IMG/VR virus record: IMGVR_UViG_3300026292_000838
Coordinates: 1-35,774 of that record
DNA: 35,774 bases
Strand: one strand, 5' to 3'
Source: a virus
Shown here: positions 14,452-29,177 of the stretch, one piece after another
Position numbering within the stretch: the first letter of the stretch is position 1
Layout: every line of letters begins with the position of its first letter
Made by a program: the position numbers and the translations under genes
The notes under the pieces: model-generated
What the model was told of the DNA's origin: nothing
Seen by the model: the letters and a program-made list of their open reading frames with translations, nothing else
Databases searched by the model: none

Positions 14452-14706
14452 TTATAACATATAGATTATTTTATCTACTTCTTCGCTAAAAACTTGAGTG
14501 TAAAATATATCACCGACGATATAAGCATAAGATAAAAAGAACATCCCGATTATAGTATAAAATATTCGGGATTTTCTTTTATGTATTTGCTCGTAAAATC
14601 TAGGATCGTCACTAACTACATACTGGACTGGACGTCCATGAATTATTTTCACACCTTGGTAGATATTTTTGCTCGTGGGAGCAGTCTTCTTTTTTGGTCT
14701 TCCCAT
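14452..14706 (-). CDS. Small single-pass membrane protein
   Basis: The 84-residue protein has a basic N-terminus (MGRPKKKTAPTSKNIYQGVK) and one membrane helix near residues 48-68 (FYTIIGMFFLSYAYIVGDIF). It converges on the 13938 gene, one base between the stops. It is coupled to the bilin reductase: its ATG overlaps the reductase stop. No function is recognised, though its position suggests co-expression with the bilin genes. Confidence 0.65.
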   Translation of the reverse strand: MGRPKKKTAPTSKNIYQGVKIIHGRPVQYVVSDDPRFYEQIHKRKSRIFYTIIGMFFLSYAYIVGDIFYTQVFSEEVDKIIYML

Positions 14707-15392
14707 TACTTAATTTTTGGAAATAACATATCCGTACAGAACCTATCTACGTCTGCTTCATTTAAACCCAAAGACTTCATTACCCTTGGAGTATGCGGAT
14801 TTTGTTGCTGATTATGACAATAGTAATTTTGACTTGCTAGTGTTATATCTCTATTACCTTGTCCAGTATATTCGCCAATAGTATCAAGATATTCGTAAAG
14901 ATTATCCAGAGCAATTTGAATGATAACTCCAGCTTCGTCTTCTTTCACATTACTTGCGGCGATCATACTTGGAGTGAAAATGTTAGTTGCCCATTCGGGC
15001 AGTTCTCTTACTTTTTCTGGAATAAAATCTTTAACGGTATCCTGATACCATTGAACCATTGGGTGTTCTTCTCCACCCGAACTTGCTGAAAAGTCATGAA
15101 ATGCACCTGTCATTTTATGCTTACCAGCAATAACATCAAAACCGTAAATAGGACCATTGTTAAATAGATCTGGAAATATGCAAACATGCATCATCCACAA
15201 TCCTTTAGTGTCCCTTGCGTCAACAACATCAATATGAGCTCTTCTAATGTCGTCATTCATCCAGACTCGATTTATCCAACTTCCGTCTGGCTGATTAAAA
15301 TGAGCCATCCCTGGCTCTTCTATTTCAGTTCCATGATGCTCAAACATCTGGATTATCTGGTCTTGGCACTTCACCAGTTGATCCCAAATCAT
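14706..15392 (-). CDS. pcyX: Ferredoxin-dependent bilin reductase (PcyX-like)
   Basis: The 228-residue protein matches the ferredoxin-dependent bilin reductase family (PcyA, PebA, PebS, PcyX), which reduces biliverdin to coloured bilins. Visible family features are RAHIDVVDAR (His53 and Asp55, aligning with the PcyA His-x-Glu pair), HVCIFPD, IYGFDVIAGKHKMTGAFHD with the catalytic-type aspartate near residue 100, and the C-terminal YYCHNQQQNPHTPRVM followed by DRFCTDMLFP. It lies 11 bases after a heme oxygenase. From the literature as I recall it, PcyX enzymes from oceanic phages sit beside a heme oxygenase and make phycoerythrobilin. The subfamily and product are inferred from this context. 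Confidence 0.85.
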   Translation of the reverse strand: MIWDQLVKCQDQIIQMFEHHGTEIEEPGMAHFNQPDGSWINRVWMNDDIRRAHIDVVDARDTKGLWMMHVCIFPDLFNNGPIYGFDVIAGKHKMTGAFHDFSASSGGEEHPMVQWYQDTVKDFIPEKVRELPEWATNIFTPSMIAASNVKEDEAGVIIQIALDNLYEYLDTIGEYTGQGNRDITLASQNYYCHNQQQNPHTPRVMKSLGLNEADVDRFCTDMLFPKIK

Positions 15393-15403
15393 GGCTGTAC
15401 CTA

Positions 15404-15976
15404 TTAAGCGTTCAGTTGTTCGTAAATTTTCTGTCTGTATCCATAAGCGATGTTAGCTTCGATTTCATCTGATTCACTAACACGTTTATCAAGCAGAGCT
15501 TTCATTTCTTCAACAGATCTTTCCATTTCGCCGAATTCCCACATCTTTCCAGAACCTGGAACTTTGCCTTTGTACTTCTGCTCAAGATCACCCATATGGT
15601 TTGCCCAAACATGAGTCATTAGCTTTTGCTTATCATGTTGGATTTTTGTAACAATATGCGATCTGTATTCTTCTACTGCTGGAACCATTGCTGGTGGATT
15701 TGCATCGTCGCCACCTAGCTCTTTAAAATCTGCTAAAATTTCGTCAGCTTGTATTAAACCATCTAGTGGAAAGTCATCGCCTGGCATTTGTGGATCTACT
15801 GGTCCAAAACAACCCATGCTCATTGCAACGTCTTCCATCACATCGTATAGCATATACATATTCCAAAGAAAATTCTTATACTTTTCTTCGCTTATTTTGC
15901 CCGCACCCATATCGACTGCAAATGTTGATCTATCTGCATTCTGCTTGTGTGCAGAAGTTAAACTTTGTAGACTCAT
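15404..15976 (-). CDS. hemO: Heme oxygenase
   Basis: The 190-residue protein fits the heme oxygenase fold: the N-terminal helix LTSAHKQNADRSTF carries the proximal histidine (residue 10), then ISEEKYKNFLWNMYMLYDVMED, and the distal-helix-like THVWANHMGDLEQKY near residue 125. Heme oxygenases open heme to biliverdin, iron and CO using reduced ferredoxin. AAGGAG precedes the ATG and a late promoter (CATAAATA) lies about 33 bases upstream. It is directly followed by the bilin reductase, so biliverdin is likely passed on. Which biliverdin isomer is formed cannot be seen. Confidence 0.85.
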   Translation of the reverse strand: MSLQSLTSAHKQNADRSTFAVDMGAGKISEEKYKNFLWNMYMLYDVMEDVAMSMGCFGPVDPQMPGDDFPLDGLIQADEILADFKELGGDDANPPAMVPAVEEYRSHIVTKIQHDKQKLMTHVWANHMGDLEQKYKGKVPGSGKMWEFGEMERSVEEMKALLDKRVSESDEIEANIAYGYRQKIYEQLNA

Positions 15977-16008
15977 TGTGTACTCCTTAAGTTATCATTC
16001 ATATACAT

Positions 16009-16016
16009 TATTTATG
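16009..16016 (-). promoter_or_regulatory. T4-type late promoter for the bilin operon
   Basis: Minus strand CATAAATA lies at the end of clpS, 33 bases before the heme oxygenase ATG. It would drive heme oxygenase, bilin reductase and the small membrane protein. Confidence 0.5.
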
Positions 16017-16334
16017 CTATTCTTTTTCAATTGCTATCTGTAAAGGAAAGCCATTTGTCCTAGCTAACTTAGTCGCTTCAAGCGATCTTTGTTCTGCTAT
16101 TTCAAATGTGTATAATCCTACGATAGCTTGTCCGTCATTGTGTATTTTCATAGTAAGTTCTTGTGCAGTCTTTTCAGAATGTTTAAAGACTTGGACTAGA
16201 ATTTCAACAACAAAATCCATTGGAGTAGAGTTGTCATTCATGAAAATAACCTTATATTTCCCTGGATCTTTAGCAATTTCTTTAATTGCTTCTTTTACGC
16301 CAATTTCTTTTTCAAGTTCAATTGATACTGTCAT
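16017..16334 (-). CDS. clpS: ClpS adaptor protein
   Basis: The 105-residue protein has the full ClpS core: YKVIFMNDNSTPMDFVVEIL (the N-degron pocket region), a KTAQELTMKIHNDGQAIVG segment, and the closing FEIAEQR...GFPLQI. ClpS brings N-degron proteins to ClpA-ClpP and reduces ClpA handling of SsrA-tagged proteins. The 30-residue N-terminal extension that contacts ClpA is present but differs from E. coli. Together with viral clpP and tmRNA it suggests that the phage retunes host protein turnover. It follows hsp20, with a hairpin between them. Confidence 0.92.
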   Translation of the reverse strand: MTVSIELEKEIGVKEAIKEIAKDPGKYKVIFMNDNSTPMDFVVEILVQVFKHSEKTAQELTMKIHNDGQAIVGLYTFEIAEQRSLEATKLARTNGFPLQIAIEKE

Positions 16335-16351
16335 ATTAACTCCTGGTGGTC

Positions 16352-16371
16352 TAGGGGGATTTCTCCCCCTA
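16352..16371 (-). other. Strong hairpin between hsp20 and clpS
   Basis: TAGGGGG and CCCCCTA arms enclose a six-base loop. There is no T-run, so it is probably an mRNA-processing or stability element ahead of clpS rather than a terminator. Confidence 0.5.
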
Positions 16372-16381
16372 AACTGTACCC

Positions 16382-16831
16382 TTACTTATCGTTATCGCCA
16401 TTCACAATATTGATAGTTTGTGGTTTAAGTTCCTCTGGAACTTCTCTAACTAGATGAACATTTAACATGCCGTTTTCTAGTTTTGCTTCTTTTACATCAA
16501 CATGTTCTGCAAGTGTAAACTCTCTTACAAAGTTACGTCCTGCAACGCCTCTGTGTAGGTAGTCTACATCGTCAACACCTTCTGGTGATTTACCTTCGAT
16601 TTTAAGGATATTTTGATCCTTTTCAATCTTAAGGTTATCCATACCAAAACCAGCAACTGCTACTGATATCATGAATGCATCTTCATTAATCTTAGCAATG
16701 TTGTATGGCGGATATCCCGTGTGTCCATTAGAACTGTTTTCGAACAATCTGTCCATCGTCTCGAACATATGGTCGAATCCAATCATTGATTTGTAAAATG
16801 TGGGTAGGTTTAGAGTAGTTATTCTTGTCAT
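16382..16831 (-). CDS. hsp20: Small heat-shock protein (Hsp20/IbpA type)
   Basis: The 149-residue protein has the alpha-crystallin domain: YNIAKINEDAFMISVAVAGF, LKIEGKSPEG, YLHRGVAGRNFVREFTL and the closing ENGMLNVHLVREVPEELKP (G-x-L motif). The C-terminal I-x-I-like INI segment may bind neighbouring subunits. Hsp20 holds unfolded proteins and is frequent in T4-like marine phages. The leader carries a late promoter (GATAAATA) and a long imperfect hairpin (near 16890-16917). AAGGAGAAAAC precedes the start. Confidence 0.93.
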   Translation of the reverse strand: MTRITTLNLPTFYKSMIGFDHMFETMDRLFENSSNGHTGYPPYNIAKINEDAFMISVAVAGFGMDNLKIEKDQNILKIEGKSPEGVDDVDYLHRGVAGRNFVREFTLAEHVDVKEAKLENGMLNVHLVREVPEELKPQTINIVNGDNDK

Positions 16832-16919
16832 TGTTTTCTCCTTATATTAAGCAAGTTAACGTTATTTGGGCTACATGCCCTGTTGAAAACACCCAACCCT
16901 GGCGTATCTTCAACAATAC

Positions 16920-16927
16920 TATTTATC
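16920..16927 (-). promoter_or_regulatory. T4-type late promoter for hsp20-clpS
   Basis: Minus strand GATAAATA, 89 bases before the hsp20 ATG. It probably drives hsp20 and clpS together. The rest of the 16832-16975 gap holds only the structured leader. Confidence 0.5.
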
Positions 16928-16975
16928 ATAGTAATAGTAATACTAGCATTAAATGGCGAAAAGTAAACCGATTTT

Positions 16976-18136
16976 TTAACCATTATTTGCGTAGATATCA
17001 TTAAATTGTTGTGTTACTCGTACAAAAGTAGTACATCTGCTTAGATGCTTTAGTCTAAGTGCTCCTGCATACGTACAAGTGCTTCTAAGACCGCCTAAGA
17101 GGTCTTGTAACGTCACTTTAACGTCTCCTTTGTACTTGACTAGTACAGTTCTGCCTTCACTGCTTCGATAATCTTTTAAGCCACCAAAATGCTTGTCATT
17201 TGCAGTATCTGAACTCATACCATAAAATTGGATATACTTTTGTTCTCTTACTGCTCTTGTAGTGTGTTCACCTTTACCAAATAAACCGCTCTTATACTTT
17301 TCTTCATCTAGCTCACTAGTAATAAAGTGTTTGGTAATAATCTCTCCTCCACCTTGATCATGTCCTGCTAACATTCCGCCTAGCATTACATAGTCAGCAC
17401 CTCCGGAAAATGCTTTTGCTACGTCTCCAGGGCAAACACAACCGCCATCAGCAATAACATGCCCACCCAAGCCATGGGCGGCATCTGCACATTCAATAAC
17501 TGCTGATAACTGTGGATATCCAACTCCGGTTTGAATTCTTGTTGTACAAACTGAGCCAGGCCCAATCCCAACTTTAACGATATCTGCTCCACTTAGTATT
17601 AACTCCTCTGTCATTTCTCCAGTTACTACATTACCTGCAATTATTACTACATTAGGGTAGTTGACTCTAAATTCTTTTACAAATGTTGCAAATCTTTCTG
17701 AATAACCGTTTGCTACATCAATACAAACATATTTTAATTTCTCACCTACTTGTTCGTATACAGTACGAAACTTGTCGTGATCTTTATCAGTAATACCAAT
17801 ACTCATTGCTACAAATTCTGTTCTAGTACTACTTCCAATTGAAGTTGAGTCAAAGTAGTTAACTAGTTCTTTTACTGTATATGTTTTAACTAAACAAGTC
17901 ATTATTTGTTGTTCAGCAAGTGTATCGGCCATTTCAAAAGTACCCACGCCATCCATATTACTTGCCATAATAGGAACACCTCGATAGTGTCTTTGCTTGT
18001 CTACTAGTGGGCCTTTATAATTGCGAAAAGTAAATCCACGTTTAAGATCAACTCCTTTACGACTTCCTAGTGTAGAACGTTTAGGTCTAATAAGAACGTC
18101 TTTGTAATCTAATTTTATTTCATCTTCTATTCGCAT
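16976..18136 (-). CDS. guaC: GMP reductase
   Basis: The 386-residue protein converts GMP to IMP with NADPH, in purine salvage. IMPDH/GMPR family features are clear: [17 protein letters not shown], the active-site loop [12 protein letters not shown] with catalytic Cys197 and Thr199, [19 protein letters not shown] and the GMPR-type [19 protein letters not shown] and [13 protein letters not shown]. It lacks the CBS domains of IMPDH, supporting guaC. It is slightly longer than E. coli GuaC (347). The role in a phage is probably to redirect host purines toward ATP or dATP pools beside ribonucleotide reductase. It follows the 18138 gene closely. Confidence 0.92.
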
Positions 18137-18137
18137 T

Positions 18138-18383
18138 TTACTTTACCTCTATATCTAGAAATCGACCTTGCTCGGCTTGGGCTCGTTCAAGTTGACTTTG
18201 TTTATTGTATAAACTAAATCTATCTAAATTGTCCCAATAGGCCTTTAACATCAATTCAGTTATTTGAATCTTTTTGTTTTGATGCTTTGTAATTTGTTTT
18301 TGTTGTTCGTAATGTTCTCGTTGTCTTTCAACTAAATCTAGTTTAGCATGTATCGCCTTTGTAACTTCTTGTATTTGCGTCAT
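18138..18383 (-). CDS. Small coiled-coil protein
   Basis: The 81-residue protein is Gln/Lys-rich and nearly all helix ([33 protein letters not shown]). No signal peptide or motif is present. Its start overlaps the 2OG oxygenase stop by four bases and its stop nearly touches the guaC start, so it is co-translated with both. No function is recognised. Confidence 0.65.
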
Positions 18384-18955: not shown

Positions 18956-18959
18956 TGAT

Positions 18960-19617: not shown

Positions 19618-19625
19618 CCTAATAT

Positions 19626-21488
19626 TTACTTGTCTTTGTCGTGTATCTTGTTCCAAACTGAATCTTTACTTTGTTCTTCATTTTGTTTATAACTTTCTGG
19701 TTCAATTACTTCTGTAAGATCTGGTTTAAGTCTACCAAGTTCTTCTTCTAGTACTTCTTTATCTTTAACAAATTGTGCCCACGGAAGTTCTGATACTCTT
19801 CCTGTTAAGTATGCGTCTTTCCAATCTTTTATATTTTGATCTGGATTGTCTTCTTTCCATAATCTTTTTGCTTTAGTCCACTCATTGTCATCTTCGTATT
19901 GTTCTAAAAGTTCTGCTCTTTCTTTAATTTCTTCTGGAGTTATCTTTTCTGCTTCTGCTTCTGCATTTGCCGCTTCAACCCATTCGTTCCAGTTATCAAG
20001 ATCGCTTTTTGATTCTTCCGATGATTCTATATCTTTTTTTTCGACCTCATCTTCGTTAACTTCAATTGCTTCTATTTTTTCTTTAACTTCTTCTAATTCT
20101 TTAGCTACTTCTACAGGTGCTTCTTCATCTTTAAACTCTTTGTCTAACGTTTCTTGGTCGACGTCTTCGAACTTAATTTCTTCTTCTTTTTCTTCTTCAG
20201 GTTCTGGCTCTGGCTCTGGCTCGTCTTTTGAGGGCGGAGAGTTTTCCATAATTTTTTTAGCTCTTGCTTGTTCATATTCACGCCAGGCTAACCCCCTGTT
20301 GTCAGCAAACTGGAAGGTGTATTGACTAGCAATTAAAAGTAATACTGCTAGTGGATCAAAAACAAATATTATAAGAATAATAACCCAACGAACTGCTTCT
20401 TCAAGTAGATCTCTAGTAACTTCTTCTCCATATATTAATTCTGCAATATACTTAATTGGTCCTACTTCTGCTTCTAGTTTTCTGTACTCAGCCTCTATAT
20501 CATATTTTTGTTCTGTTAGTGTATCTATAACTGCATTAGCTTCTTTAATTTTAAGCAGTTCTGCATTAACTATGTCAGTATTATTGTCAGGTGTTACACT
20601 TCCTATTTCACTTCTAAGTTTATTAATTACTTTGTTTGAGTCAGCTATTTCCTGTTCAGCAATACCACGAAGTCTTTTAATTTCTACGTTAGCCGCCTCA
20701 ACAATAGGAGAGTCTTTTGCTTCTATAGTAGCAATAGTTTGTAAAATACTTTCACGTTTTGCAAGTAAACCTTCTCTATAACTTTCTACTTGCTTGGCAG
20801 TTTTAGTACCATATGTTCCATCTACTCTTGTTCCTATAATACTTTGTAAACGTCTTATACTTTCCTTGTCACGTCTGTTAAGTAAGTCTGATAATGTTTG
20901 TAAGTCTGCATCTATATTAGATATTTGAGCAAGGTATGGTTCTGTCTTCTTGTCTTTACGTTCAATATCCTGTTGTATTATTTTATTTTGTTCTTCTACA
21001 AGAGGCTGTATTCTGTCATATGCCGTATCGATTCTTTTTTGTTCTCTATCGATTTGGTCTTGGATTGTATCGTTTTTATTAGCACCAGCATTTTCTACTT
21101 TGCTAATCTTTTCTTCAGACCTTGTTATAACTGATTCGTATCTAGTTATTTCAGTTTCTATACGTACTAATTGTTCTGCTGATTCTAAACTTGCACTTGT
21201 TTGTTCTATATGTGCTTTAGATAGATATCCAAAGATACCCATTGATGTAATAAACATTAAGACAACAACGGCAATGCTCAGATATGACTTCAGCCACCAT
21301 GTTGCCTTAGACCAATATTTGTGTAACCAAACTGCGGTTACAAGTTTTCCTATTTCTAATACAGTTCCCATTACCATAATGGGTATAGCGGCCGCGGCAA
21401 ATATTGCTACGAGACCGGCTATACTGTAATAAATTGCGACTGCTGAAATACTTAAAGCAGATAATAATACTAAAATACCTAATGCCAT
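19626..21488 (-). CDS. Large multi-pass membrane protein with coiled coil and PG-binding-like motif
   Basis: The 620-residue protein has three N-terminal membrane segments (about 1-22, 23-45 and 66-90), a long coiled coil (about 100-350), a fourth membrane segment near 367-390 (WVIILIIFVFDPLAVLLLI), and an acidic C-terminal tail with an EPEPEPEP run. Within the coiled coil, residues 208-238 (RLQSIIGTRVDGTYGTKTA) look like one peptidoglycan-binding type 1 repeat. The layout suggests a protein in the host inner membrane with a large periplasmic or cytoplasmic loop. A late promoter precedes it. Similar large proteins occur in T4-like marine phages; no function is known to me. Confidence 0.75.
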   Translation of the reverse strand: MALGILVLLSALSISAVAIYYSIAGLVAIFAAAAIPIMVMGTVLEIGKLVTAVWLHKYWSKATWWLKSYLSIAVVVLMFITSMGIFGYLSKAHIEQTSASLESAEQLVRIETEITRYESVITRSEEKISKVENAGANKNDTIQDQIDREQKRIDTAYDRIQPLVEEQNKIIQQDIERKDKKTEPYLAQISNIDADLQTLSDLLNRRDKESIRRLQSIIGTRVDGTYGTKTAKQVESYREGLLAKRESILQTIATIEAKDSPIVEAANVEIKRLRGIAEQEIADSNKVINKLRSEIGSVTPDNNTDIVNAELLKIKEANAVIDTLTEQKYDIEAEYRKLEAEVGPIKYIAELIYGEEVTRDLLEEAVRWVIILIIFVFDPLAVLLLIASQYTFQFADNRGLAWREYEQARAKKIMENSPPSKDEPEPEPEPEEEKEEEIKFEDVDQETLDKEFKDEEAPVEVAKELEEVKEKIEAIEVNEDEVEKKDIESSEESKSDLDNWNEWVEAANAEAEAEKITPEEIKERAELLEQYEDDNEWTKAKRLWKEDNPDQNIKDWKDAYLTGRVSELPWAQFVKDKEVLEEELGRLKPDLTEVIEPESYKQNEEQSKDSVWNKIHDKDK

Positions 21489-21509
21489 TGTTGTCCTTAT
21501 TAAGTTATG

Positions 21510-21517
21510 TATTTATC
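21510..21517 (-). promoter_or_regulatory. T4-type late promoter for the large membrane protein
   Basis: Minus strand GATAAATA, 21 bases before the ATG at 21488; it overlaps the end of the lipoprotein gene. Confidence 0.5.
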
Positions 21518-21953
21518 GGACAAACTGCCAGGTGTTATCAGTACTGTTAATACAAGCTGTCTCGGAAAAGTCTCTTGTTCTGTTATTATAAACAATTTGA
21601 CTCATTAAAACCCTACAGTAGCCACTTCCTTGTGGATACGTCATAGACACTTTAACTGCTCCTCTTGCACCTGTATTACCATTATACCATCTGGTTACTT
21701 CGCCTGTCTTTAAGTTATTTAATGCAAAGAAAACTGCATTTTCTTGTTGCTTTCTATCATAGTCGTTCATCATAGATGCATTCCATTTAATAGCATTCAT
21801 AGCAACTGTTATAGTACTATTCCCTGGGTGATAGTACTTTTCCGTACTTGCTATTGTACTATGACTCGTATGATGAAATTGTGTACCTGTTTGACAGGCT
21901 GTTAAAAATAATATGCTAGTTATAAGGATGGCTAACGATTTCCCATTCGCCAT
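21513..21953 (-). CDS. Lipoprotein with Rickettsia 17 kDa-type surface antigen domain
   Basis: The 146-residue protein is started at ATG 21953 because MANGKSLAILITSILFLTAC is a proper lipoprotein signal with lipobox LTAC (cysteine near residue 20). The mature part has WNASMMNDYDRKQQENAVFF, then TGEVTRWYNGNTGARGAVKV, YCRVLMSQIV and ETACINSTDNTW, matching the C-terminal domain of 17 kDa surface antigens found in Rickettsiales and other alphaproteobacteria. It overlaps the previous lipoprotein gene by 38 bases. The role may be to remodel or mimic the host surface. Confidence 0.75.
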   Translation of the reverse strand: MANGKSLAILITSILFLTACQTGTQFHHTSHSTIASTEKYYHPGNSTITVAMNAIKWNASMMNDYDRKQQENAVFFALNNLKTGEVTRWYNGNTGARGAVKVSMTYPQGSGYCRVLMSQIVYNNRTRDFSETACINSTDNTWQFVR

Positions 21954-22251
21954 TAAGTTTTTGACAAACGTAGCCACGTTGTTTAACTGCTTTTCCATTA
22001 AGCCAAATATCATACCAGTACTCCCTGCAATCTTTAGCAATATCACTATATGCTAAGAAATGTTTATTTTTCGGATTATCCGTACACTCAGTTACACCTT
22101 TACTATTAACACTATTACCATTTTGTGTATTAATGGTTGTAGTTTGATAACAATACTGTGGTTTAAACTGAGCCATTGTTGGATGGTTGTTGTGAGAGGA
22201 GCAAGCCGATAGTGTGGCGATTGCTCCTGCCATTAAGATTAAATTCCGCAT
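21916..22251 (-). CDS. Lipoprotein of unknown function
   Basis: The 111-residue protein has a short signal (MRNLILMAGAIATLSACSS) with lipobox LSAC, cysteine near residue 17. The mature part contains four further cysteines (QYCYQ, TECTDN, KDCREY, YVCQKL), suggesting two disulphides in the periplasm. It is the second of three tandem lipoprotein genes; the start is one base after the upstream stop, and its end overlaps the next gene. No family is recognised. Confidence 0.75.
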   Translation of the reverse strand: MRNLILMAGAIATLSACSSHNNHPTMAQFKPQYCYQTTTINTQNGNSVNSKGVTECTDNPKNKHFLAYSDIAKDCREYWYDIWLNGKAVKQRGYVCQKLNGEWEIVSHPYN

Positions 22252-22252
22252 C

Positions 22253-22768
22253 TTAGTTCGCCAGTTTAATTGCGTCAGTGGATTTTGCTTCTGCTATTAA
22301 GGCATCGAAGATTTCTTTTTCCATGCTTAACTTAACAAAAGTATAAGTTTTACCTTGGTACTTGTATGTACCAGTTTCTTTAGCAACGTGCTCTCGAATT
22401 TTAGTGTCAGCAACTTTATAACTTATAAAAGTCGTAGTGTTTTTAGTTTCAGCACCTGACTTATTTTTAAAGTTAATTTTAGTTTCACTGTTTACTGTAC
22501 TATTAATTCTTTTTGCAAAGTTATTCATTGCAATAGCATACATCTGCTCTTCAGCGGCCTGTTCAAAAATACTTACACCTGCTCCACAAGAGAATACATA
22601 ATCTTGTTTCCACCAAAACCAGCCTTTTGATCCAGTTTCGGCACATTTTGCATACCATTTAGGTTGTGCATAAGTATCACGTTCTGCAATAGTTGTATAA
22701 GATGAACATGCATTTAGCATACCCATTACCCCAATTATTGCTCCTAGTCTTAAAATGCCTTTATACAT
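22253..22768 (-). CDS. LPP20-like lipoprotein
   Basis: The 171-residue protein has a signal peptide and lipobox LNAC (cysteine near residue 21). The mature part carries AEEQMYAIAMNNFAKRINSTVNSE, which resembles the LPP20-type fold of small outer-membrane lipoproteins, and PKWYAKCAETGSKGW near the start. It is first of three lipoprotein genes and follows a near-consensus sigma70 promoter, so early expression is likely. The precise role is unknown. Confidence 0.75.
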   Translation of the reverse strand: MYKGILRLGAIIGVMGMLNACSSYTTIAERDTYAQPKWYAKCAETGSKGWFWWKQDYVFSCGAGVSIFEQAAEEQMYAIAMNNFAKRINSTVNSETKINFKNKSGAETKNTTTFISYKVADTKIREHVAKETGTYKYQGKTYTFVKLSMEKEIFDALIAEAKSTDAIKLAN

Positions 22769-22824
22769 TATATTGCCTTTCTGTGTGCATTAGTTATTAA
22801 AATGATTTCTATCATTATGTTTAC

Positions 22825-22853
22825 ATTATACTGTCATTGACTGGGAATGTCAA
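22825..22853 (-). promoter_or_regulatory. Sigma70 promoter for the lipoprotein operon
   Basis: Minus strand -35 TTGACA (22853-22848), 17-base spacer, -10 TATAAT (22830-22825). A small inverted repeat (TTGAC/GTCAA) overlaps the -35 box. Confidence 0.75.
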
Positions 22854-22868
22854 GAACTTTTGGTTAAC

Positions 22869-23540
22869 CTAGTTGCTCAAAAGTTCTTGTATTTGATTAA
22901 CCTTTGATATTACTAGTCTTGTGTATCTTGGATTGGTGCTCCAAGGACTTAAATGATTAATCATTTCTCCAAGGTTTGGAGTTCCTGTTGCTAATTGATT
23001 TGCTCTTTCTTCTCGAAACTTTTTATATACATCAAGTTCGTTAATGATTCTTATCATATCTTTAACGGACTTACATTTAGTAATGTATACTTTAACTCCC
23101 CATTTAGCATCTGGATTGCCCTTTGGTTTTAGTTGTGGTGCCTTTTCGTCCCACGTTCTAATACCAAATAAGTTGTTACCTTCTTTAGCAAACCTACTAT
23201 TACCATAACCAGTTTCTAAGATAGCCATAGCAATAATAATATGTGCATGGACTCTTTCATCTGGTGGTGTAGATAAGTTAACATAACTGATACATTTATT
23301 AACGGCTGTAACGAACTGTTCGTTTGTGTCGTATATCATCTCTGGCTCGTACAATCCGTAATCTAAATATTCAGATTGAACTTGAGCAAATGCATCTTTT
23401 GTAATTTTGTTTAATACCAGGTAGTTCGGTTGAAAAGTTCCTGAACCATAAGATATGACTATGGATAAAATCCAAAACAATAAGAAGTAAAATGTTCGTC
23501 GTATCTTAACCGGTATCTTTTTCCAAAGTTTTATGGCCAT
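22869..23540 (-). CDS. Bax-like N-acetylglucosaminidase, membrane anchored
   Basis: The 223-residue protein has a basic start and one N-terminal membrane or signal-anchor helix (about 14-32). The glucosaminidase-type core shows AHIIIAMAILETGYGNSRFA near residue 100, NNLFGIRTW and a later LSPWSTNPRYT motif. The family cleaves the peptidoglycan glycan backbone, and the glutamate in ILETGYG is the expected catalytic residue. It overlaps the SleB-like gene by ten bases and forms a probable lysis pair with it. A signal-anchor-release endolysin is one possible mode. Confidence 0.82.
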   Translation of the reverse strand: MAIKLWKKIPVKIRRTFYFLLFWILSIVISYGSGTFQPNYLVLNKITKDAFAQVQSEYLDYGLYEPEMIYDTNEQFVTAVNKCISYVNLSTPPDERVHAHIIIAMAILETGYGNSRFAKEGNNLFGIRTWDEKAPQLKPKGNPDAKWGVKVYITKCKSVKDMIRIINELDVYKKFREERANQLATGTPNLGEMINHLSPWSTNPRYTRLVISKVNQIQELLSN

Positions 23541-24151
23541 CTATAAAATATATGTGTTCCTATTCTACCGACTAAGTCAAGTTGAGGTGCCCACCTTGGA
23601 CTTACATAAGTAGCATGGTAGTGAGTTGCTCCTTCTGTAATCCCTCTAAACTTGTTTTCGTTTACAATTCTATAAGCAATTTCTTGTGCTTTACGCCAAG
23701 CATCGTTATCTCTAATTGTATCTGACTTGCCATCACAGTACCAAGAAAATTGACACTTGTTTCTTATTGGATTGAAGACTCTCTTGTCTTCGGGCAAATC
23801 TTTGTGTTGCTTTGTTTTCCAAGATTCACGAGTTGGTCCGTCCAATACTACTTCACATATTGTATTGGGGTACCGAGCATCGTTTACTCTATTTAAAACA
23901 ACGTCGGATACGGCAAACTGTCCAGCTACTGGTTCCGACTTGGCTTCAAAATAAATGTTTGCCGCCAAACAGTATAATTCTGGATGAGTTTCCGATGTGT
24001 ATAGTTCTCCTTCAACTGCGCCTTGTAAAGTTACTGCACCCGCATACGTCATCGGGACCATAAACAATATACAAAACAATGTCGAAGCTAACTTAAACAT
24101 TAACCTCATATAATATTTAAGCTCTGCCATTAAAATGTAAAATGCTAACAT
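23531..24151 (-). CDS. SleB/CwlJ-type cell-wall hydrolase
   Basis: The 206-residue protein starts at ATG 24151, with AGGAGG seven bases upstream. A leader (MLAFYILMAELKYYMRLMF then KLASTLFCILFMVPMTYA) exports it. The catalytic domain is clearly SleB: CLAANIYFEAKSEPVAGQFA, VVLNRVNDARYPNTICEVV, CQFSWYCDG and a final GATHYHATYVSP. SleB-type enzymes hydrolyse peptidoglycan in spores and in alphaproteobacterial phages. It is followed by a second hydrolase, and its start overlaps the upstream stop as TAATG. Confidence 0.88.
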   Translation of the reverse strand: MLAFYILMAELKYYMRLMFKLASTLFCILFMVPMTYAGAVTLQGAVEGELYTSETHPELYCLAANIYFEAKSEPVAGQFAVSDVVLNRVNDARYPNTICEVVLDGPTRESWKTKQHKDLPEDKRVFNPIRNKCQFSWYCDGKSDTIRDNDAWRKAQEIAYRIVNENKFRGITEGATHYHATYVSPRWAPQLDLVGRIGTHIFYRWP

Positions 24152-24603
24152 TAGTTCCTCCTCATTTGTGCTATGTCTGTTGCCTGTTTACTGCCTGTTT
24201 TATCATCGTCATCCGCAAAAATAGGAACCATATTTGACTTATGCATGGTGGCTATCCCCACTAGTCGTCTGGTTCCAGTATATTGAAGTGAATCTTTCTT
24301 TAATGCGGGTGCAAATTGATCCAAGTTTTTAGTCTCGACAATTCTATCAGTACCTTGCTGTGGACGAGTATAAATTGGCTCGGTTCTGTTTATTGAAGTT
24401 GCCCTTGGTTTGAGTTCTCCTCTGATATATGCAATGAACGTGTCCAAATCCATTTGCAAATCGTGACAACCTAATCGACGCATATCTTTATTGTGCATCT
24501 TTAGTTGCTTACTGTACTTATCAATTTGAGCCAATGATAATTTCTTCTTTTTTGGCTTACGAGTATTGAGAGTTGTTAGCCCTCTTTCTAAATGCATAGT
24601 CAT
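24151..24603 (-). CDS. Conserved phage-type basic protein of unknown function
   Basis: The 150-residue protein has a basic N-terminus (LNTRKPKKKKLSLAQIDKY), a helical part, and near the end TGTRRLVGIATMHKSNMVPIF, then DIAQMRRN. No membrane segment is seen. I have seen comparable ends in proteins of T4-like marine phages but cannot name a function. GCAGGAG precedes the start; a promoter and a composite hairpin lie just upstream. Confidence 0.65.
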   Translation of the reverse strand: MTMHLERGLTTLNTRKPKKKKLSLAQIDKYSKQLKMHNKDMRRLGCHDLQMDLDTFIAYIRGELKPRATSINRTEPIYTRPQQGTDRIVETKNLDQFAPALKKDSLQYTGTRRLVGIATMHKSNMVPIFADDDDKTGSKQATDIAQMRRN

Positions 24604-24665
24604 AAAAAAACTCCTGCTATTGAAAGTTAATAACTCATTATAACAGGAGTTGATTTATTTGTCAA
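24604..24665 (-). promoter_or_regulatory. Composite promoter and terminator ahead of 24603
   Basis: Minus strand -35 TTGACA (24665-24660), 17-base spacer, -10 TATAAT (24642-24637). An inverted repeat AACTCCTG (24651-24644) and CAGGAGTT (24616-24609) followed by a seven-T run (24610-24604) forms a terminator-like hairpin. Only transcripts reading in from upstream contain both arms, because the left arm is inside the promoter spacer. Confidence 0.6.
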
Positions 24666-24674
24666 GAGTTTTGA

Positions 24675-24935
24675 TTAAGCAAATACTCTTCTTCTTGAGA
24701 TTGAGTATTCGTTAGCAGGTCTTCCTACTTCGCCAGTGTAAATTGGTTTTGATTTAACATTAAAACCAGCTTCTCTGATCTCCCATACTCTTGCGCCAGG
24801 TGACATAGCATCCAATTTATCTGTTAGACCTTCTAATGTAAAAGTCTTACCAGTACCCCAGTATTTCGCTAGGATTTGTTGCTTCTGAGAACCTACTCTA
24901 AAGTAAGTAGAGCCTTTGTTATTATTGATTGGCAT
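24675..24935 (-). CDS. Small winged-helix-like protein
   Basis: The 86-residue protein starts at ATG 24935, with AAAGGAGG seven bases upstream; the in-frame extension to 25007 crosses a terminator hairpin. The body (SQKQQILAKYWGTGKTFTLEGLTDKLDAM, then GARVWEIREAGFNV) has helix-helix-wing character and a basic end (EYSISRRRVFA), which suggests nucleic-acid binding. The conserved GRPANEYSI looks like a DNA-contacting wing. Its own promoter and leader hairpin imply control by attenuation. No family assigned with certainty. Confidence 0.65.
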   Translation of the reverse strand: MPINNNKGSTYFRVGSQKQQILAKYWGTGKTFTLEGLTDKLDAMSPGARVWEIREAGFNVKSKPIYTGEVGRPANEYSISRRRVFA

Positions 24936-24955
24936 ATTGCCTCCTTTATTAAAAA

Positions 24956-24975
24956 AAGAGCTCGAAAGAGCTCTT
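24956..24975 (-). terminator. Attenuator hairpin in the leader of 24935
   Basis: AAGAGCTC and GAGCTCTT arms with a TTTC loop are followed on the minus strand by seven T (24957-24951). It lies between the promoter at 25017-25045 and the ribosome site of the gene, so it can act as a leader terminator. Confidence 0.75.
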
Positions 24976-25016
24976 ATACTTGTTACTAGTCTATCTTTTA
25001 TAAACATAATAGTATT

Positions 25017-25045
25017 AATATATTACAAGTTGTGGAGGACGTCAA
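25017..25045 (-). promoter_or_regulatory. Sigma70 promoter upstream of the attenuator
   Basis: Minus strand -35 TTGACG (25045-25040), 17-base spacer, -10 TATATT (25022-25017). The predicted start is near 25010, so the hairpin at 24956-24975 lies about 35-55 bases into the transcript. Confidence 0.7.
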
Positions 25046-25054
25046 GTGTTTTGG

Positions 25055-25324
25055 CTAGATATTCAGTTCTTTTTGGGCAGGCTTAGACTTTTCTAATATC
25101 TTTTCCATTTCGTTTTCGGGCACACAGTAAACATTTTGCATTGTTTGTAATGGAAATTCATTTTTAAGTTTCCAAGCAATCATTTGTCCATTTTCTGGTT
25201 GCTTTACAAATTCAATACATTGTTCTGATGATGTAAAAGATGGGTCAGTAAAAATATATAAATTAGTTGTTTGTTGAGTATAAGACATACTCATAACTGC
25301 TACTAAAAACCAATTAACAATCAT
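25055..25324 (-). CDS. Small exported two-cysteine protein (family A)
   Basis: The 89-residue protein begins with a hydrophobic leader (MIVNWFLVAVMSMSYTQQ), then YIFTDPSFTSSEQCIEF and MQNVYCVPENE, the same two-cysteine layout as the proteins at 3895, 4122 and 25519. The C-terminus is charged (EKILEKSKPAQKELNI). Its start overlaps the stop of the 25321 gene. It probably acts in the periplasm; the function is unknown. Confidence 0.65.
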   Translation of the reverse strand: MIVNWFLVAVMSMSYTQQTTNLYIFTDPSFTSSEQCIEFVKQPENGQMIAWKLKNEFPLQTMQNVYCVPENEMEKILEKSKPAQKELNI

Positions 25325-25518
25325 TTCATCCTCTTATCTATCCATTTTTTACCTATGTATAGTAATGCTACAACAAGTACAATACCTGAAAGAACTATAG
25401 CTTCAGTTACTATATTTCCTGTACTTGAATCTATTTCTATACCTTCTTGACTTACTACTATACGGCAAGTTTCACAATCTGATTTGTTTGCTTTCGCTAC
25501 ACCAGTTCCCCAAAACAT
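25321..25518 (-). CDS. Small single-pass membrane protein
   Basis: The 65-residue protein has a CETC motif near residue 15 (KSDCETCRIV), a short beta part and one membrane helix near residues 38-57 (IVTEAIVLSGIVLVVALLY), with a basic tail (GKKWIDKRMK). The CxxC faces outward if the helix is the only anchor. It is wedged between two members of the two-cysteine family (four-base overlap), so a shared envelope role is plausible. No family is recognised. Confidence 0.6.
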   Translation of the reverse strand: MFWGTGVAKANKSDCETCRIVVSQEGIEIDSSTGNIVTEAIVLSGIVLVVALLYIGKKWIDKRMK

Positions 25519-25812
25519 TTAGTTTACTCGTTTATACATTTCTTTTTGTCCTATTACTTTAGGATTGCTGTTTTTTTGAAAATCCATTTCAACCATTCCA
25601 CACGCCAAATAATCTATTTCCATAACTGCATTGTATTTTTCTCTACCATGATCAAGTAAGCCGTTTAATATCTCTGCTTGATACTTATTGTAGAACTCAG
25701 TGCATTTGTCGTAAGAATGAAATTGTAACTGCCAACTATATAAGTTTTCAGTTTTACTCGGATCGTTAGTGTATATAAGAGTAGCAAGAAAAATAATTGC
25801 TATAGATTTCAT
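25519..25812 (-). CDS. Small exported two-cysteine protein (family A)
   Basis: The 97-residue protein starts with a short signal (MKSIAIIFLATLIYTNDP), then an aromatic segment YSWQLQFHSYDKCTEFYNK and a late cysteine in IDYLACGMVEMD. It is the longest member of the family that includes 3895, 4122 and 25055. Its start is adjacent to the stop of the thermonuclease gene. Periplasmic location and a disulphide are inferred. Confidence 0.65.
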   Translation of the reverse strand: MKSIAIIFLATLIYTNDPSKTENLYSWQLQFHSYDKCTEFYNKYQAEILNGLLDHGREKYNAVMEIDYLACGMVEMDFQKNSNPKVIGQKEMYKRVN

Positions 25813-26259
25813 TTAGCTAACAATGCCTTCTTTAAGAAGCCTTTCTCTATTAGCCAAGTGTTTCTCTTGTATATCATCTTTTGATTGACCATGGTATTCT
25901 ACTCCATGTCCTTCTTTAATAAGAATCTTAGTACAGCCAAGTTGCCTATCTTCTGGGCCATAGTATACGTGGAAATCCCCTAGTATTCTACCAAACTTGC
26001 CTTTCTTGTCTTCTCCAGATTTATCAATTTCTGTTTTAAGAATTTGTATTGAACCAGTTGGTAAAAGTTCTTTAAGTCTTGCTTTACTTGCCAATCCAAA
26101 TTTCTTCTCTACTTTATCTCTTGTTCTAGACTCAGGAGTATCAATGCCCATCATTCTTACACGTTCTTTGTGCATCCAAACACCAAATCCTAAATCAATG
26201 TCAACATCAACAGTATCTCCGTCAACAACTCTTAATATTTTTGATTTATATTCATACAT
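25813..26259 (-). CDS. Thermonuclease-like (SNase) nuclease
   Basis: The 148-residue protein starts at ATG 26259, because GGAG lies six to seven bases upstream. It has the SNase core: KILRVVDGDTVDVDIDLGFG, VRMMGIDTPESRT and KFGRILGDFHV, with the arginines and acidic residues expected at the calcium site. SNase enzymes cut DNA or RNA with calcium. No signal peptide is seen, so it may act inside the cell on host nucleic acid or as a non-catalytic SNase fold. It belongs to a run of small membrane and exported genes. Confidence 0.85.
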   Translation of the reverse strand: MYEYKSKILRVVDGDTVDVDIDLGFGVWMHKERVRMMGIDTPESRTRDKVEKKFGLASKARLKELLPTGSIQILKTEIDKSGEDKKGKFGRILGDFHVYYGPEDRQLGCTKILIKEGHGVEYHGQSKDDIQEKHLANRERLLKEGIVS

Positions 26260-26260
26260 G

Positions 26261-26455
26261 CTATTCTCCAAACATATTCATTAGCTCAGGTCCAAAGACA
26301 CTTGCCGCCCAACCCAATGCACAAATGGTTACTACTCCAAGTACTAGCCATTTCATTTTAAAATCGTCTACGGTCATTTTTAAAGCTATTAATTCGTTAC
26401 CTAATACTCGTACAGCTACTTCTAGCTTACCTTGATCATCTGCTTGTCCCGCCAT
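26261..26455 (-). CDS. Small single-pass membrane protein
   Basis: The 64-residue protein has a charged N-terminal helix (ADDQGKLEVAVRVLGNEL) and one membrane helix near residues 36-53 (WLVLGVVTICALGWAASVF). Its stop lies one base from the thermonuclease start. AAGGAGAA precedes the ATG, and a late-type CTAAATA lies upstream at 26485-26491. No family is recognised. Confidence 0.65.
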   Translation of the reverse strand: MAGQADDQGKLEVAVRVLGNELIALKMTVDDFKMKWLVLGVVTICALGWAASVFGPELMNMFGE

Positions 26456-26484
26456 ACATTTCTCCTTATCATTAACTACTAATA

Positions 26485-26491
26485 TATTTAG
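26485..26491 (-). promoter_or_regulatory. Possible late promoter for the 26455-25055 run
   Basis: Minus strand CTAAATA in the divergent gap 26456-26525, about 30 bases before the ATG at 26455. A plus-strand GTAAATA at about 26500 faces the opposite gene, so late expression may be divergent. Confidence 0.35.
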
Positions 26492-26525
26492 CTAAAATGG
26501 TAAATAACCGAAAAGGATCAAGCGA

Positions 26526-26714
26526 ATGGCTATAAAACATAGTAAAGGTGTAAAGACAGTTCATCATAAAAAGATGAGGGATGGTGTTGAAGTTAAGCCT
26601 TGTAAGTACTACAGACAAACTGGTGGTGCTCTCATGGGCGGTACTATTAACGGCGAACCTATAATGGATCAAGATGGAAATCCTATTCCATGGAGACAGA
26701 TAGGATATCAGTGA
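26526..26714 (+). CDS. Small basic protein of unknown function
   Basis: The 62-residue plus-strand protein (MAIKHSKGVKTVHHKKMRDG) is basic at the N-terminus and ends GNPIPWRQIGYQ. It has no signal or membrane helix. AAAAGGATC lies upstream. Its stop codon overlaps the GTG start of the next gene (GTGA). No function is recognised. Confidence 0.6.
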   Translation: MAIKHSKGVKTVHHKKMRDGVEVKPCKYYRQTGGALMGGTINGEPIMDQDGNPIPWRQIGYQ

Positions 26715-26860
26715 GCTTAGGTGTAAGAAAAATAATTGTACGTTTAAGAATGTGGTATGCTGATTTCAGAGGACATCATGGACACAGATGGGATTACGAA
26801 CCTGGTGAACACTATCTAGGCATGCGAAAAAGTAAGTACTGGCAAAAGAAATCAAGATAA
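26711..26860 (+). CDS. 49-residue basic protein, GTG start
   Basis: A short frame begins at GTG 26711, overlapping the previous TGA, and ends at TAA 26858-26860. The product (VSLGVRKIIVRLRMWYADF, then GHHGHRWDYEPGEHY) is basic and rich in Trp, Tyr and His. AGGATATCA provides a weak ribosome site. Its end overlaps hemE by nine bases in the opposite direction. Translational coupling supports it, but the function is unknown. Confidence 0.5.
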   Translation: MSLGVRKIIVRLRMWYADFRGHHGHRWDYEPGEHYLGMRKSKYWQKKSR

Positions 26861-27826
26861 ACGATTTCTTACTGTTTCTATAAACAAGTGAACATGTTCT
26901 TCTGGAGTTTCTTTATTAATGCCGTGTCCTAAACCACATACCCAACCAGTAGTATCATTTCTAGACATTTCGTCACAATACTTTTCTATCTGATACATAA
27001 ACTTATGTTTAGGTAGTAACATCATTTCTTCGTCAAAGTTACCTTGAACAAACCCTTTCTTAAAAGTTTTTAATGCATGAGTTATATCAACTTTACTATC
27101 AATGCCAATGCCACCCCAGTCCCCTTGTACTACTTTGTCAATGCATTTCCTGGGTAAGTTCTTACTATAGTAAGCTGTCTGTGGCATGGCTAAAGACATT
27201 AACAAAGGAGAATACTTTTTATTAAAAAAAGACGAAGACATATTCTTTAATCCGCTATCGAATACCATTACCTTTTCTGCACCAGCATCAAGTTGTAATG
27301 TTATATTACGAACTAGTAAAGGTATAAGAATAGACTTCATATAGTCTAGTTTAAATTCATCAGTTACTCTCGAATCGCCAACGGCGTAATTCATTAGTGT
27401 CCATGGACCTCCCACAAAGCCTATTAAACTTTTATGTTTGGGTAGCATAGCTCTTGTTGTTATTATTGCATCTCTTTGGAATGACATAAACCTTAATGCT
27501 TCAGGAATGTTACTATGTTCGTCTGCATTTTCTAATGTTAAGTTATGTGCAAATTTAGGACCTGGATCAAACTTTAAAGGAATTCCTAAGCCTTCTAAAG
27601 GAAATAGTATATCAGAAAAAAGTATTGCAACGTCATAATCAAATTCATCGATTGGACCTAGTGCAACTTCTCCAGCTAACTCTGGAGTCTTACATAATTC
27701 TTCAAATGTGTATTTTAATTTTAAATCACGATAGTGTTGATGATATCTTCCAGCTTGACGCATAAACCATATAGGTGGCGTTTTTTGTGATATCCGTTTA
27801 CAAGCATTTTTAAATTTTATATTCAT
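26852..27826 (-). CDS. hemE: Uroporphyrinogen III decarboxylase
   Basis: The 324-residue protein removes four carboxyl groups from uroporphyrinogen III to give coproporphyrinogen III, committing tetrapyrroles to heme. Family signatures are present: PPIWFMRQAGRYHQHY near residue 17, ILFSDILFPLEGLG with the catalytic-type Asp, GFVGGPWTLMNYA, and GLGHGINKETPEEHVH near the end. The enzyme is slightly shorter than cellular forms (about 345-355). The start overlaps the hemC stop as ATGA, giving coupled translation. It lies in one transcription unit with the tmRNA and hemC. Confidence 0.95.
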   Translation of the reverse strand: MNIKFKNACKRISQKTPPIWFMRQAGRYHQHYRDLKLKYTFEELCKTPELAGEVALGPIDEFDYDVAILFSDILFPLEGLGIPLKFDPGPKFAHNLTLENADEHSNIPEALRFMSFQRDAIITTRAMLPKHKSLIGFVGGPWTLMNYAVGDSRVTDEFKLDYMKSILIPLLVRNITLQLDAGAEKVMVFDSGLKNMSSSFFNKKYSPLLMSLAMPQTAYYSKNLPRKCIDKVVQGDWGGIGIDSKVDITHALKTFKKGFVQGNFDEEMMLLPKHKFMYQIEKYCDEMSRNDTTGWVCGLGHGINKETPEEHVHLFIETVRNRLS

Positions 27827-28659
27827 TTTATATTATTACCAACTTCCTCACCAATTTGTATATAGTCCATTAGCTTTCCTGTTGCTTCATATTGTTTATT
27901 ATTAGTATAATTTATCGATTTTAGCATCAAACAGTCTCCTACAATACTCGATATTGCTCCAACGGCTGTATGACAGTCGCCATCTATAACTTGTAGCATT
28001 TTACGTTCGCTCATTACTGAATAGTACGTATTCCAATGATTTAGTATCTTTTGCAAAGATCTAAGGTCAGGATGGTCTTTACGCATTTGTATTGCTATAA
28101 CTCCTTGTCCAACACACGGTAACATCTTATCTAAAGGAAATCTTTTAGTAATCCTGTTTTCTAATCCTAATGCTTCTAACCCTGCTACTGCAAGTATAAT
28201 TGCATCGTACATTCCTTCGTCTAATTTACGTAGTCGTGTATCAATGTTTCCTCTAATAGGTCGTACATTAAAAGGAACATTAAAGTTTTCTGTTAGTTCT
28301 GCTATTCTTCTAGGCGAGCCTGTTCCAACTTTTGCATTAGGAAATAGTACACCTATATAACAATCTCTAGGATCTTGTCTTTCAAGTACAGCAACTATTT
28401 CAAGACGTTCGTCCATCTGTGCAGGTAAGTCTTTAAACGAATGTATTGCTAAGTCTATTTTTTTGTCTATTAATTGTTTTTCTATAGCAGAAACAAATAC
28501 ACCTTTACCACCCATTTCGTGTATAGGTTGGTCAGCTTTAATATCGCCTTGTGTTTTTATTTCGGTTATTTTTATTTCGGGCCATGCCTGCGGAAGTAGT
28601 GCAACGACTTTATCGGCGTATGCTAGAGCTAGTTTACTTCCTCTTACACCAATCTTCAT
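27823..28659 (-). CDS. hemC: Porphobilinogen deaminase (hydroxymethylbilane synthase)
   Basis: The 278-residue protein links four porphobilinogens into hydroxymethylbilane. I start it at ATG 28659, with GGAGG five bases upstream; longer reading runs into the tmRNA. Visible signatures are MKIGVRGSKLALAYA, DLAIHSFKDLP (catalytic Asp), VGTGSPRRIAEL, RPIRGNIDTRL, and DGDCHTAVGA with the cysteine that holds the dipyrromethane cofactor. It is a little shorter than cellular enzymes (about 310). It follows the tmRNA coding piece by about 30 bases and is coupled to hemE. Confidence 0.95.
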   Translation of the reverse strand: MKIGVRGSKLALAYADKVVALLPQAWPEIKITEIKTQGDIKADQPIHEMGGKGVFVSAIEKQLIDKKIDLAIHSFKDLPAQMDERLEIVAVLERQDPRDCYIGVLFPNAKVGTGSPRRIAELTENFNVPFNVRPIRGNIDTRLRKLDEGMYDAIILAVAGLEALGLENRITKRFPLDKMLPCVGQGVIAIQMRKDHPDLRSLQKILNHWNTYYSVMSERKMLQVIDGDCHTAVGAISSIVGDCLMLKSINYTNNKQYEATGKLMDYIQIGEEVGNNIK

Positions 28660-28689
28660 GTTACCTCCAATTTTAAAGTGCAACTTTTC

Positions 28690-28897: not shown

Positions 28898-28898
28898 A

Positions 28899-29066: not shown

Positions 29067-29079
29067 CGTAGTGTCCTTA

Positions 29080-29142: not shown

Positions 29143-29148
29143 AGTATA

Positions 29149-29177
29149 TTTATAACATACTTTAACTACAATGTCAA
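29149..29177 (-). promoter_or_regulatory. Sigma70 promoter for tmRNA-hemC-hemE
   Basis: Minus strand -35 TTGACA (29177-29172), exact 17-base spacer, -10 TATAAA (29154-29149). Transcription would start near 29142, just at the acceptor piece. It overlaps the end of the DUF3307 gene. Confidence 0.75.

Follow-up and report, generated by a model that had tools for sequence, protein, structure and literature searches.

Why would a marine phage carry genes for building heme precursors together with genes associated with turning heme into bilins? This question is raised by a 35,774-base virus record of IMG/VR (IMGVR_UViG_3300026292_000838; hereafter the window, meaning the whole stretch of DNA analyzed), in which an initial annotation had recognized hemC, hemE, a heme oxygenase (HO) gene and a bilin reductase gene and had proposed a viral heme-to-bilin pathway with intact family motifs in all four. 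A Pfam profile search confirmed the four genes and their families at the annotated positions, and the motifs are intact in HemC, HemE and the reductase, but not in the HO homologue, where the proximal His is off its place and the distal motif is changed. We consider it rather probable that the window stems from a large marine phage that remodels the tetrapyrrole metabolism of its host, with HemC and HemE as suppliers, a retained PcyX-type reductase and an HO-fold protein that binds tetrapyrroles and does not cut them. Directly established, and the basis of this view, are the identity and order of the genes, their co-occurrence, the states of the active sites, selection and promoter motifs.

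A heme oxygenase homologue with an altered active site

The HO homologue (15404–15976, minus strand; PF01126, Heme_oxygenase, E 1.4e-8) is separated by 11 bases from the gene of a ferredoxin-dependent bilin reductase (FDBR) on the same strand. Its fold is retained, as judged from an AlphaFold model (pLDDT 94.2) whose top ten Foldseek hits are all HmuO (probability 1.00, TMq 0.76–0.79), and an alignment-based scan returned 18 relatives, a single-sequence scan none. Three further contigs are collinear with the window, namely G018 (43 matching open reading frames, ORFs), G019 (48) and G020 (44), and a chance association of the genes can be discounted for this reason.

Motif alignments revealed changes at the proximal His and at the distal motif, both of which we take to have catalytic roles. 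At the start of helix 1, H-x-x-A-[ED] is found in 58 of 61 distinct phage HOs, the exceptions being the window, G018 and G019. In the window protein, K11 occupies the canonical place of the proximal His and a His is found at position 10 (...SAHKQNADR), while G018 and G019 read ...SASQ[SA]NAES and have no His in that region. The distal GDLSGG is present in 32 of 36 aligned HOs, and the four exceptions make up the window lineage (GDLEQK in the window, GDLEG in G018 and G019, ADLTD in G020). The HO of locus L026, which is not part of the 36-row alignment, reads GDMYGG.

Purifying selection persists in the altered lineage (dN/dS, the ratio of nonsynonymous to synonymous rates, 0.08–0.25, median 0.17, in five of six pairs, one being omitted for saturated dS) as it does in canonical near relatives (0.09–0.26, median 0.12, 21 pairs), all values being approximate in view of nearly saturated synonymous distances (dS roughly 1–1.8). 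The altered HO is thus a maintained protein and no wreck, and the sequence evidence makes a non-catalytic tetrapyrrole-binding protein the most likely interpretation. The earlier statement that this phage turns heme into bilin could not be sustained, as it depends on an HO without the canonical proximal His and SGG; with the active site altered, it is doubtful that this phage runs a simple line from heme to bilin.

All four families are nevertheless there, as adjacent pairs, and an intact line could be drawn in which host and phage HemC/HemE boost heme, HO converts it to biliverdin and PcyX makes a phycobilin, e.g., phycoerythrobilin. Canonical HO motifs are found in G016, G021, G023, G032, G043 and G047, which combine an FDBR with hemC and/or hemE, as well as in G026, another collinear contig, and relatives whose HO is normal could use this gene set for such a line. 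Moreover, a marine phage PcyX as well as HO and PcyA of the freshwater phage CB_2 are reported as active in passages of a recent study (Wegner et al., 2024; PMC11480375). For the window itself we regard an intact line as rather unlikely, since neither SGG nor a canonically placed proximal His is present in its HO, and in two collinear phages that region has no His at all.

A conserved PcyX-type reductase

The pcyX-type FDBR gene (14706–15392, minus strand) belongs to the FDBR family (PF05996, Fe_bilin_red, E 9e-15, 55.4 bits, cut-off 31), and its earlier description as PcyX-like agrees with a PDB search, in which the product is nearer to PcyX (5owg, E 7e-78, 264.8 bits) than to PcyA (E 4e-14, 56.3 bits). 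D55, H69 and D86 are kept in all 63 distinct phage sequences (64-row alignment, with the window entered twice), and the D55 column, which is Glu in PcyA, is occupied by Asp in 5owg as well as in each of the 63. Work by Ledermann from 2018 is said to deal with the role of the Asp-His pair of PcyX and of Asp in place of the PcyA Glu. With a dN/dS of 0.05–0.08, the reductase is under stricter constraint than the HO homologue and, from its sequence, is predicted to be active.

hemC and hemE as candidate suppliers

The two synthesis genes overlap by 4 bases on the minus strand. hemC (hydroxymethylbilane synthase, 27823–28659) matches PF01379 (Porphobil_deam, E 5e-65) and lies above its NCBIfam equivalog cut-off (TIGR00212, 270 bits versus 164), with the C-terminal domain PF03900 slightly below its cut-off (25.5 versus 26). 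hemE (uroporphyrinogen decarboxylase, 26852–27826) matches PF01208 (URO-D, E 6e-59) and TIGR01464 (206 bits, cut-off 303), the closest solved structure being 3cyv (E 2e-34). For hemC, 28659 is the likelier start, since a longer ORF (to 28710) enters the tmRNA gene described below and the ATG at 28659 is preceded by GGAGG a few bases upstream.

D77, C229, R6, S8, R117, R118 and R142 are unchanged across 16 distinct viral HemC, as are R23, R27, D72, Y147, S191 and H301 across 20 distinct viral HemE. We take C229 to be the cofactor Cys and D77 the catalytic Asp of HemC, its Arg residues to bind substrate, and the Arg, Asp, Tyr, Ser and His residues of HemE to form the active site. Against G018–G020, dN/dS is 0.15–0.19 for hemC and 0.13–0.16 for hemE, and catalytic residues and purifying selection together point to active enzymes. 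The hemC and hemE steps lead to coproporphyrinogen III, so that the route originally assigned to them is in agreement with textbook knowledge. The two enzymes would raise the flow from porphobilinogen to coproporphyrinogen, with HemD and the final steps to heme, at a minimum, left to the host.

Stretches at least 99.9% identical to window positions 20209–35774, 22511–35774 and 26911–35727 occur in three other records; hemC lies inside all three and so does hemE, which is incomplete in one. A chimera or host DNA was ruled out by the three collinear phage contigs and by the hemC-hemE join in the three near-identical records.

A binding protein beside an active reductase?

The activities of all these proteins, their timing and the binding role of the HO homologue are what we infer from these data. 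The HO-fold protein most likely no longer cleaves heme, the proximal His being lost in three and SGG in all four phages of the lineage. It probably binds a tetrapyrrole, be it porphyrin, heme or biliverdin, which it would either retain or hand over, perhaps to PcyX; the reductase would in that case need another source of biliverdin. A more far-reaching version, which we put forward only tentatively, is that giant marine phages possess a tetrapyrrole line of their own, running in one genome from AlaS, HemB, HemC, HemE and HemF to HO and PcyX, and that the HO of the window lineage has become a viral pseudo-heme-oxygenase, i.e., a non-catalytic carrier of porphyrin or bilin working with PcyX. If true, this would be the first pseudo-heme-oxygenase described from a virus, so far as the literature searched shows.

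Several points weigh against a binding role and the scheme built on it. The HO region of the window is represented by one assembly alone, and the altered state is confined to one lineage of four contigs, within which G020 has the canonical His and has lost only SGG. The window protein retains a His one residue off as well as D130, the Asp following the distal Gly, and the displaced His10 may be a shifted ligand. In addition, the near-saturated synonymous distances blur the selection argument, HemE stays under its equivalog cut-off, and the strongly conserved PcyX, if its neighbouring HO is non-catalytic, would require biliverdin from elsewhere. At the same time, a lineage in which the HO is altered and PcyX conserved offers a test set by nature: should PcyX still be required once HO activity is gone, it would have to serve something other than simple heme breakdown.

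Co-occurrence and viral hem operons

For the survey of other viruses, the best 80 of 223 FDBR, the best 80 of 236 hemC and the best 80 of 124 hemE relatives in IMG/VR were considered, alignments being used in the hemC and hemE scans. Fifty whole records were searched, namely 17 first found via hemC/hemE, 32 FDBR records from among the longer of the 80 (at least 39.7 kb; L072, L075, L077, L081 and L082, of at least 40 kb, were left out) and the Pelagibacter phage Mosig. Among these 50 records, hemC was detected in 19, hemE in 23, hemF in two, hemB in one and alaS in nine above cut-off (ten at E 0.001). Family profiles for hemD and ferrochelatase each found 0 of 50, consistent with their absence as initially annotated. 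In the window itself, alaS was not noticed among the ORFs, no search aimed at it having been made there.

An FDBR is present in 4 of 20 records tested (the 17 hemC/hemE-first records plus G018–G020). Conversely, hemC and/or hemE were found in 9 of 34 FDBR-bearing records (the 32, G016 and Mosig), which is a floor, nearly all being fragments, in a sample that is not blind, as G018–G020 and G016 also surfaced in the hemE scan. Together with the three collinear phages that carry the set, this bears out the association in related genomes, although the window's set is narrower than that of relatives, which add alaS, hemB and hemF. G047 (107 kb) encodes AlaS, HemB, HemC, HemE, HemF, HO and PcyX, with hemF-hemC-hemE-hemB consecutive, alaS about 8 kb further and HO-FDBR about 30 kb off; a route wider than the window's is also present in G043. 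In one relative, a heme-to-bilin line could hence be fed by the phage's own AlaS, HemB, HemC, HemE and HemF. A hemF-hemC-hemE-hemB operon is located at 4655–8184 of locus L157 (IMGVR_UViG_3300000101_000007, 84655–88184), with alaS at 95840–97045.

When clustered at 95%, 169 hemC/hemE loci fell into 68 virus types. Within the stretch covered, a single gene was seen in 25 (hemE) and 17 (hemC) types and a pair in nine (hemC-hemE), five (hemE-hemC) and one (hemF-hemC); longer arrays were hemE-hemF-hemC (six), hemF-hemC-hemE-hemB (two) and hemF-hemC-hemE (one), and two types are filed under alaS. Eight of ten neighbours of five hemC/hemE loci match PHROG families (topoisomerase II, SbcC/SbcD-like, DNA methyltransferase, unknowns), some with cellular kin too. 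Ten hemC and ten hemE records from an isolate-phage collection (at most 39.1% identity) are probably bacterial DNA; some bear the name of a bacterial strain in their title, and among the rest are short records and records of faecal samples.

These patterns also bear on the idea of two unrelated modules, in which hemC/hemE would only keep up the heme supply for respiration during infection, and HO-PcyX would be a cassette of greater age and different use, its HO part now decaying. The position of hemC/hemE varies among phages while guaC, hsp20 and clpS stay with HO-FDBR, 42 of the 68 virus types have hemC or hemE alone in the stretch covered, and the HO is altered, all of which would suit such a separation. 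Purifying selection on both HO and FDBR in the altered lineage and the finding of hemC and/or hemE in 9 of 34 largely fragmentary FDBR records speak against it, and we consider it quite improbable.

Promoters and timing

A sigma70-type promoter of hemC-hemE and a late-type ATAAATA element ahead of HO-FDBR had been proposed, and both were recovered. The former, TTGACA-17-TATAAA in four of four collinear phages, is part of a combined promoter-like element of the tmRNA-hemC-hemE unit, TTGACA-17-TATAAATA (29147–29177, minus strand), an arrangement likewise found ahead of this unit in all four. It is the sole one of 11 ATAAATA sites in the window with a -35 box of at least 5/6, and combined -35/ATAAATA elements were found elsewhere in G016, G020, G032 and G047. 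The HO element (16009–16015, minus strand) lies 33 nt upstream of the HO start and 33–37 nt ahead of HO in all four collinear phages; across 61 distinct HO genes, just 14 have ATAAATA at most 100 nt upstream.

We regard ATAAATA as late-type by analogy to the T4 late consensus. In the window, 8 of 11 sites lie at most 100 nt upstream of an ORF start, versus 16% for composition-matched heptamers, and seven other contigs show the same positional bias; the raw count is not enriched (11 versus 19 expected), so that position alone stands out. Sigma70-like sites were not in excess in the window scan (58 versus 59.4 expected), which required T as the sixth base of the -10 box and thereby leaves out the TATAAA of hemC-hemE. 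Judged from the motifs, the proposed division into early and late genes stands for HO-FDBR, which looks late, but not for hemC-hemE, which looks both early and late because its promoter combines the sigma70-type promoter with the full late-type TATAAATA. The PcyX-type reductase would accordingly be produced late, together with the HO-fold protein.

Origin and host

Quick IQ-TREE runs, with support from the Shimodaira–Hasegawa-like approximate likelihood ratio test (SH-aLRT) only, group the viral genes together. Viral hemE is monophyletic (50 rows including the window, SH-aLRT 95) relative to 77 cellular rows among the matches listed; its sister clade (90) consists, among the matches listed, of 24 uncultured Alphaproteobacteria, AG-/AH- isolates that are presumably single-cell marine genomes, the donor being uncertain because the cellular rows were gathered with two peptide patterns. 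Viral hemC (45 rows, SH-aLRT 100) is monophyletic apart from 71 cellular rows, with long branches flagged. A HemC-HemD fusion was suspected for these 71 cellular rows (485–569 aa), but Pfam showed HemD to be absent from the one row tested.

The collinear contig G026 (IMGVR_UViG_3300026097_000876; L017, L184–L197) extends to 261,806 bp, with most of its 32 matching ORFs ordered within 2.5–37.5 kb. Its FDBR is 79% identical to that of the window, its alaS match has one stop in the matched stretch, and a profile search found neither hemC nor hemE in it. Its gp23 is closest to that of Sinorhizobium phage Phosso (71.5%; 66–68% in other rows listed) and nearest to jumbo phages of about 284–469 kb. 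In the window, no capsid gene was recognized. Related cassettes were placed with pelagiphages by gp13 in passages of PMC11480375; such an origin was not adopted for the window, given the jumbo-phage type of capsid protein encoded by the collinear 261-kb contig.

Directly upstream of hemC lies a gene for a two-piece (permuted) transfer-messenger RNA (tmRNA; 28677–29181, minus strand; RF01849 alpha_tmRNA, 96.9 bits, gathering 50; RF04321, 94.1, gathering 47) with an encoded 29-aa tag (ANDNVSNVFSFVDFGSLKNYVNEDYALAA). It is absent from the ARAGORN output for the window; two-piece tmRNAs are also found in G018, G019, G020 and G043. A 78-aa ORF without Pfam match (28899–29135, minus strand) lies mainly within the intervening segment; in G018 this segment contains a different ORF of 64 aa, and G019 and G020 have only a short one. 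The hemE tree and the two-piece tmRNA weakly suggest an alphaproteobacterial host. However, two-piece tmRNAs in marine phages are already known, and since an OM43 phage carries a SAR11-like one, as passages of PMC9004378 describe, the tmRNA alone is unsafe as a host marker.

Conserved neighbourhood and further genes

The conserved neighbours of the HO-FDBR pair, likewise on the minus strand, are ClpS (16017–16334; PF02617, E 1e-27), the chaperone Hsp20 (16382–16831; PF00011, E 1.2e-15) and GMP reductase (guaC, 16976–18136; NF003470, 510.6 bits, cut-off 397), which have a best match in 69, 72 and 47 of 80 FDBR loci, respectively. A 620-aa protein (19626–21488, minus strand) with N-terminal membrane segments followed by a coiled-coil-like part has a best match in 66 of 80; it shows a weak SMC-like NCBIfam match and nothing stronger.

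The window also encodes nrdB and a 2-oxoglutarate (2OG)-Fe(II) oxygenase, which leads to iron recycling as a further explanation: an intact HO could free heme iron for the phage ribonucleotide reductase and 2OG-Fe(II) oxygenases, with bilin reduction clearing the product. The HO-FDBR pair of Mosig adjoins annotated 2OG-Fe(II) oxygenases, and an iron role is suggested in passages of PMC11480375. Phage hemC and hemE would, however, invest in heme that is later broken, the HO is altered in the very lineage with hemC-hemE, and PcyX is conserved more strictly than HO; we therefore give little credence to this option and prefer a binding HO-fold protein beside a retained PcyX.

A set for rescuing ribosomes and breaking down tagged proteins is formed by PTH2 peptidyl-tRNA hydrolase (2853–3260), ClpP (6379–6966), ClpS (16017–16334), Hsp20 (16382–16831) and tmRNA (28677–29181). 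At 11230–14450, three plus-strand genes stand amid a mostly minus-strand region, all with counterparts in G018–G020; they encode a small protein that looks exported, a Ser/Thr/Glu-rich protein of 724 aa and a further protein of 170 aa. A minus-strand gene at 8640–9206 matches the malonyl-CoA decarboxylase C-terminal domain (PF05292, 3.3e-6).

Comparison with known systems

New here are the combination of genes, the viral hem operons and the altered HO. Phage tetrapyrrole genes had so far appeared either singly or in a hemO-pcyX-alaS cassette, whereas relatives of the window contain mid-heme-synthesis operons (hemC-hemE, hemE-hemF-hemC, hemF-hemC-hemE-hemB) within virus-only clades. In the open-access literature, supplements excluded, hemC/hemE joined with hemO/pcyX in one phage were not found, and no phage HO without the ligand His was met, no search having been worded for it. 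The role of bilins in hosts without phycobilins becomes testable with few purified proteins.

Among the closest known systems are the alaS-hemO-pcyA/X cassettes of phages (Wegner et al., 2024; PMC11480375); that study calls their hemO and FDBR genes enigmatic. As far as passages of that study describe them, they resemble the window in being marine myovirus-type contigs on which hemO adjoins a PcyX-type FDBR gene, alaS being present on some, and in concerning the tetrapyrrole metabolism of the virocell; the window adds hemC-hemE and an HO with altered active site. Its main text has no match for hemC or hemB, and its passages none for hemE, where a text search confounds hemE with heme. The deep-ocean pelagimyophage PMP-MAVG-4, compared by description only, reportedly has GMP reductase, coproporphyrinogen oxidase and porphobilinogen deaminase (Zaragoza-Solas et al., 2020; PMC7029224); it shares GMP reductase and hemC with the window and hemF with the window's relatives, and the main text has 0 matches for "bilin" and, in the passages on this phage, names no bilin gene. 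Marine and estuarine viral surveys count heme biosynthesis genes (ahbD, alaS), and one lagoon study among them ties a viral heme biosynthesis group to low oxygen (PMC9301287; PMC13390420; PMC13184970, in passages); hemC and hemF have no match in PMC9301287, and nothing in the survey passages connects the heme biosynthesis genes with hemO/pcyX.

Pelagibacter phage Mosig (EXVC030M, MT647606) has HO and FDBR adjacent in the same order as the window (FDBR 54%, HO 30% identical). It differs in that a search found neither hemC and hemE nor hemF and alaS, its HO has the canonical His, and only 7 of 60 ORFs match within the 47 kb compared. A Mosig gene annotated as "putative ferrochelatase" (43207–43977) has no PF00762 match, and the name may be wrong.

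For the altered HO, a parallel comes from plants, where the pseudo heme oxygenase HO2 of Arabidopsis lacks the ligand His. Likened by description only, the plant and the phage protein are both HO homologues, and HO2 is described in passages of PMC13316938 as not converting heme. Furthermore, the PDB entry 5btq presents human HO-1 H25R solved with biliverdin bound.

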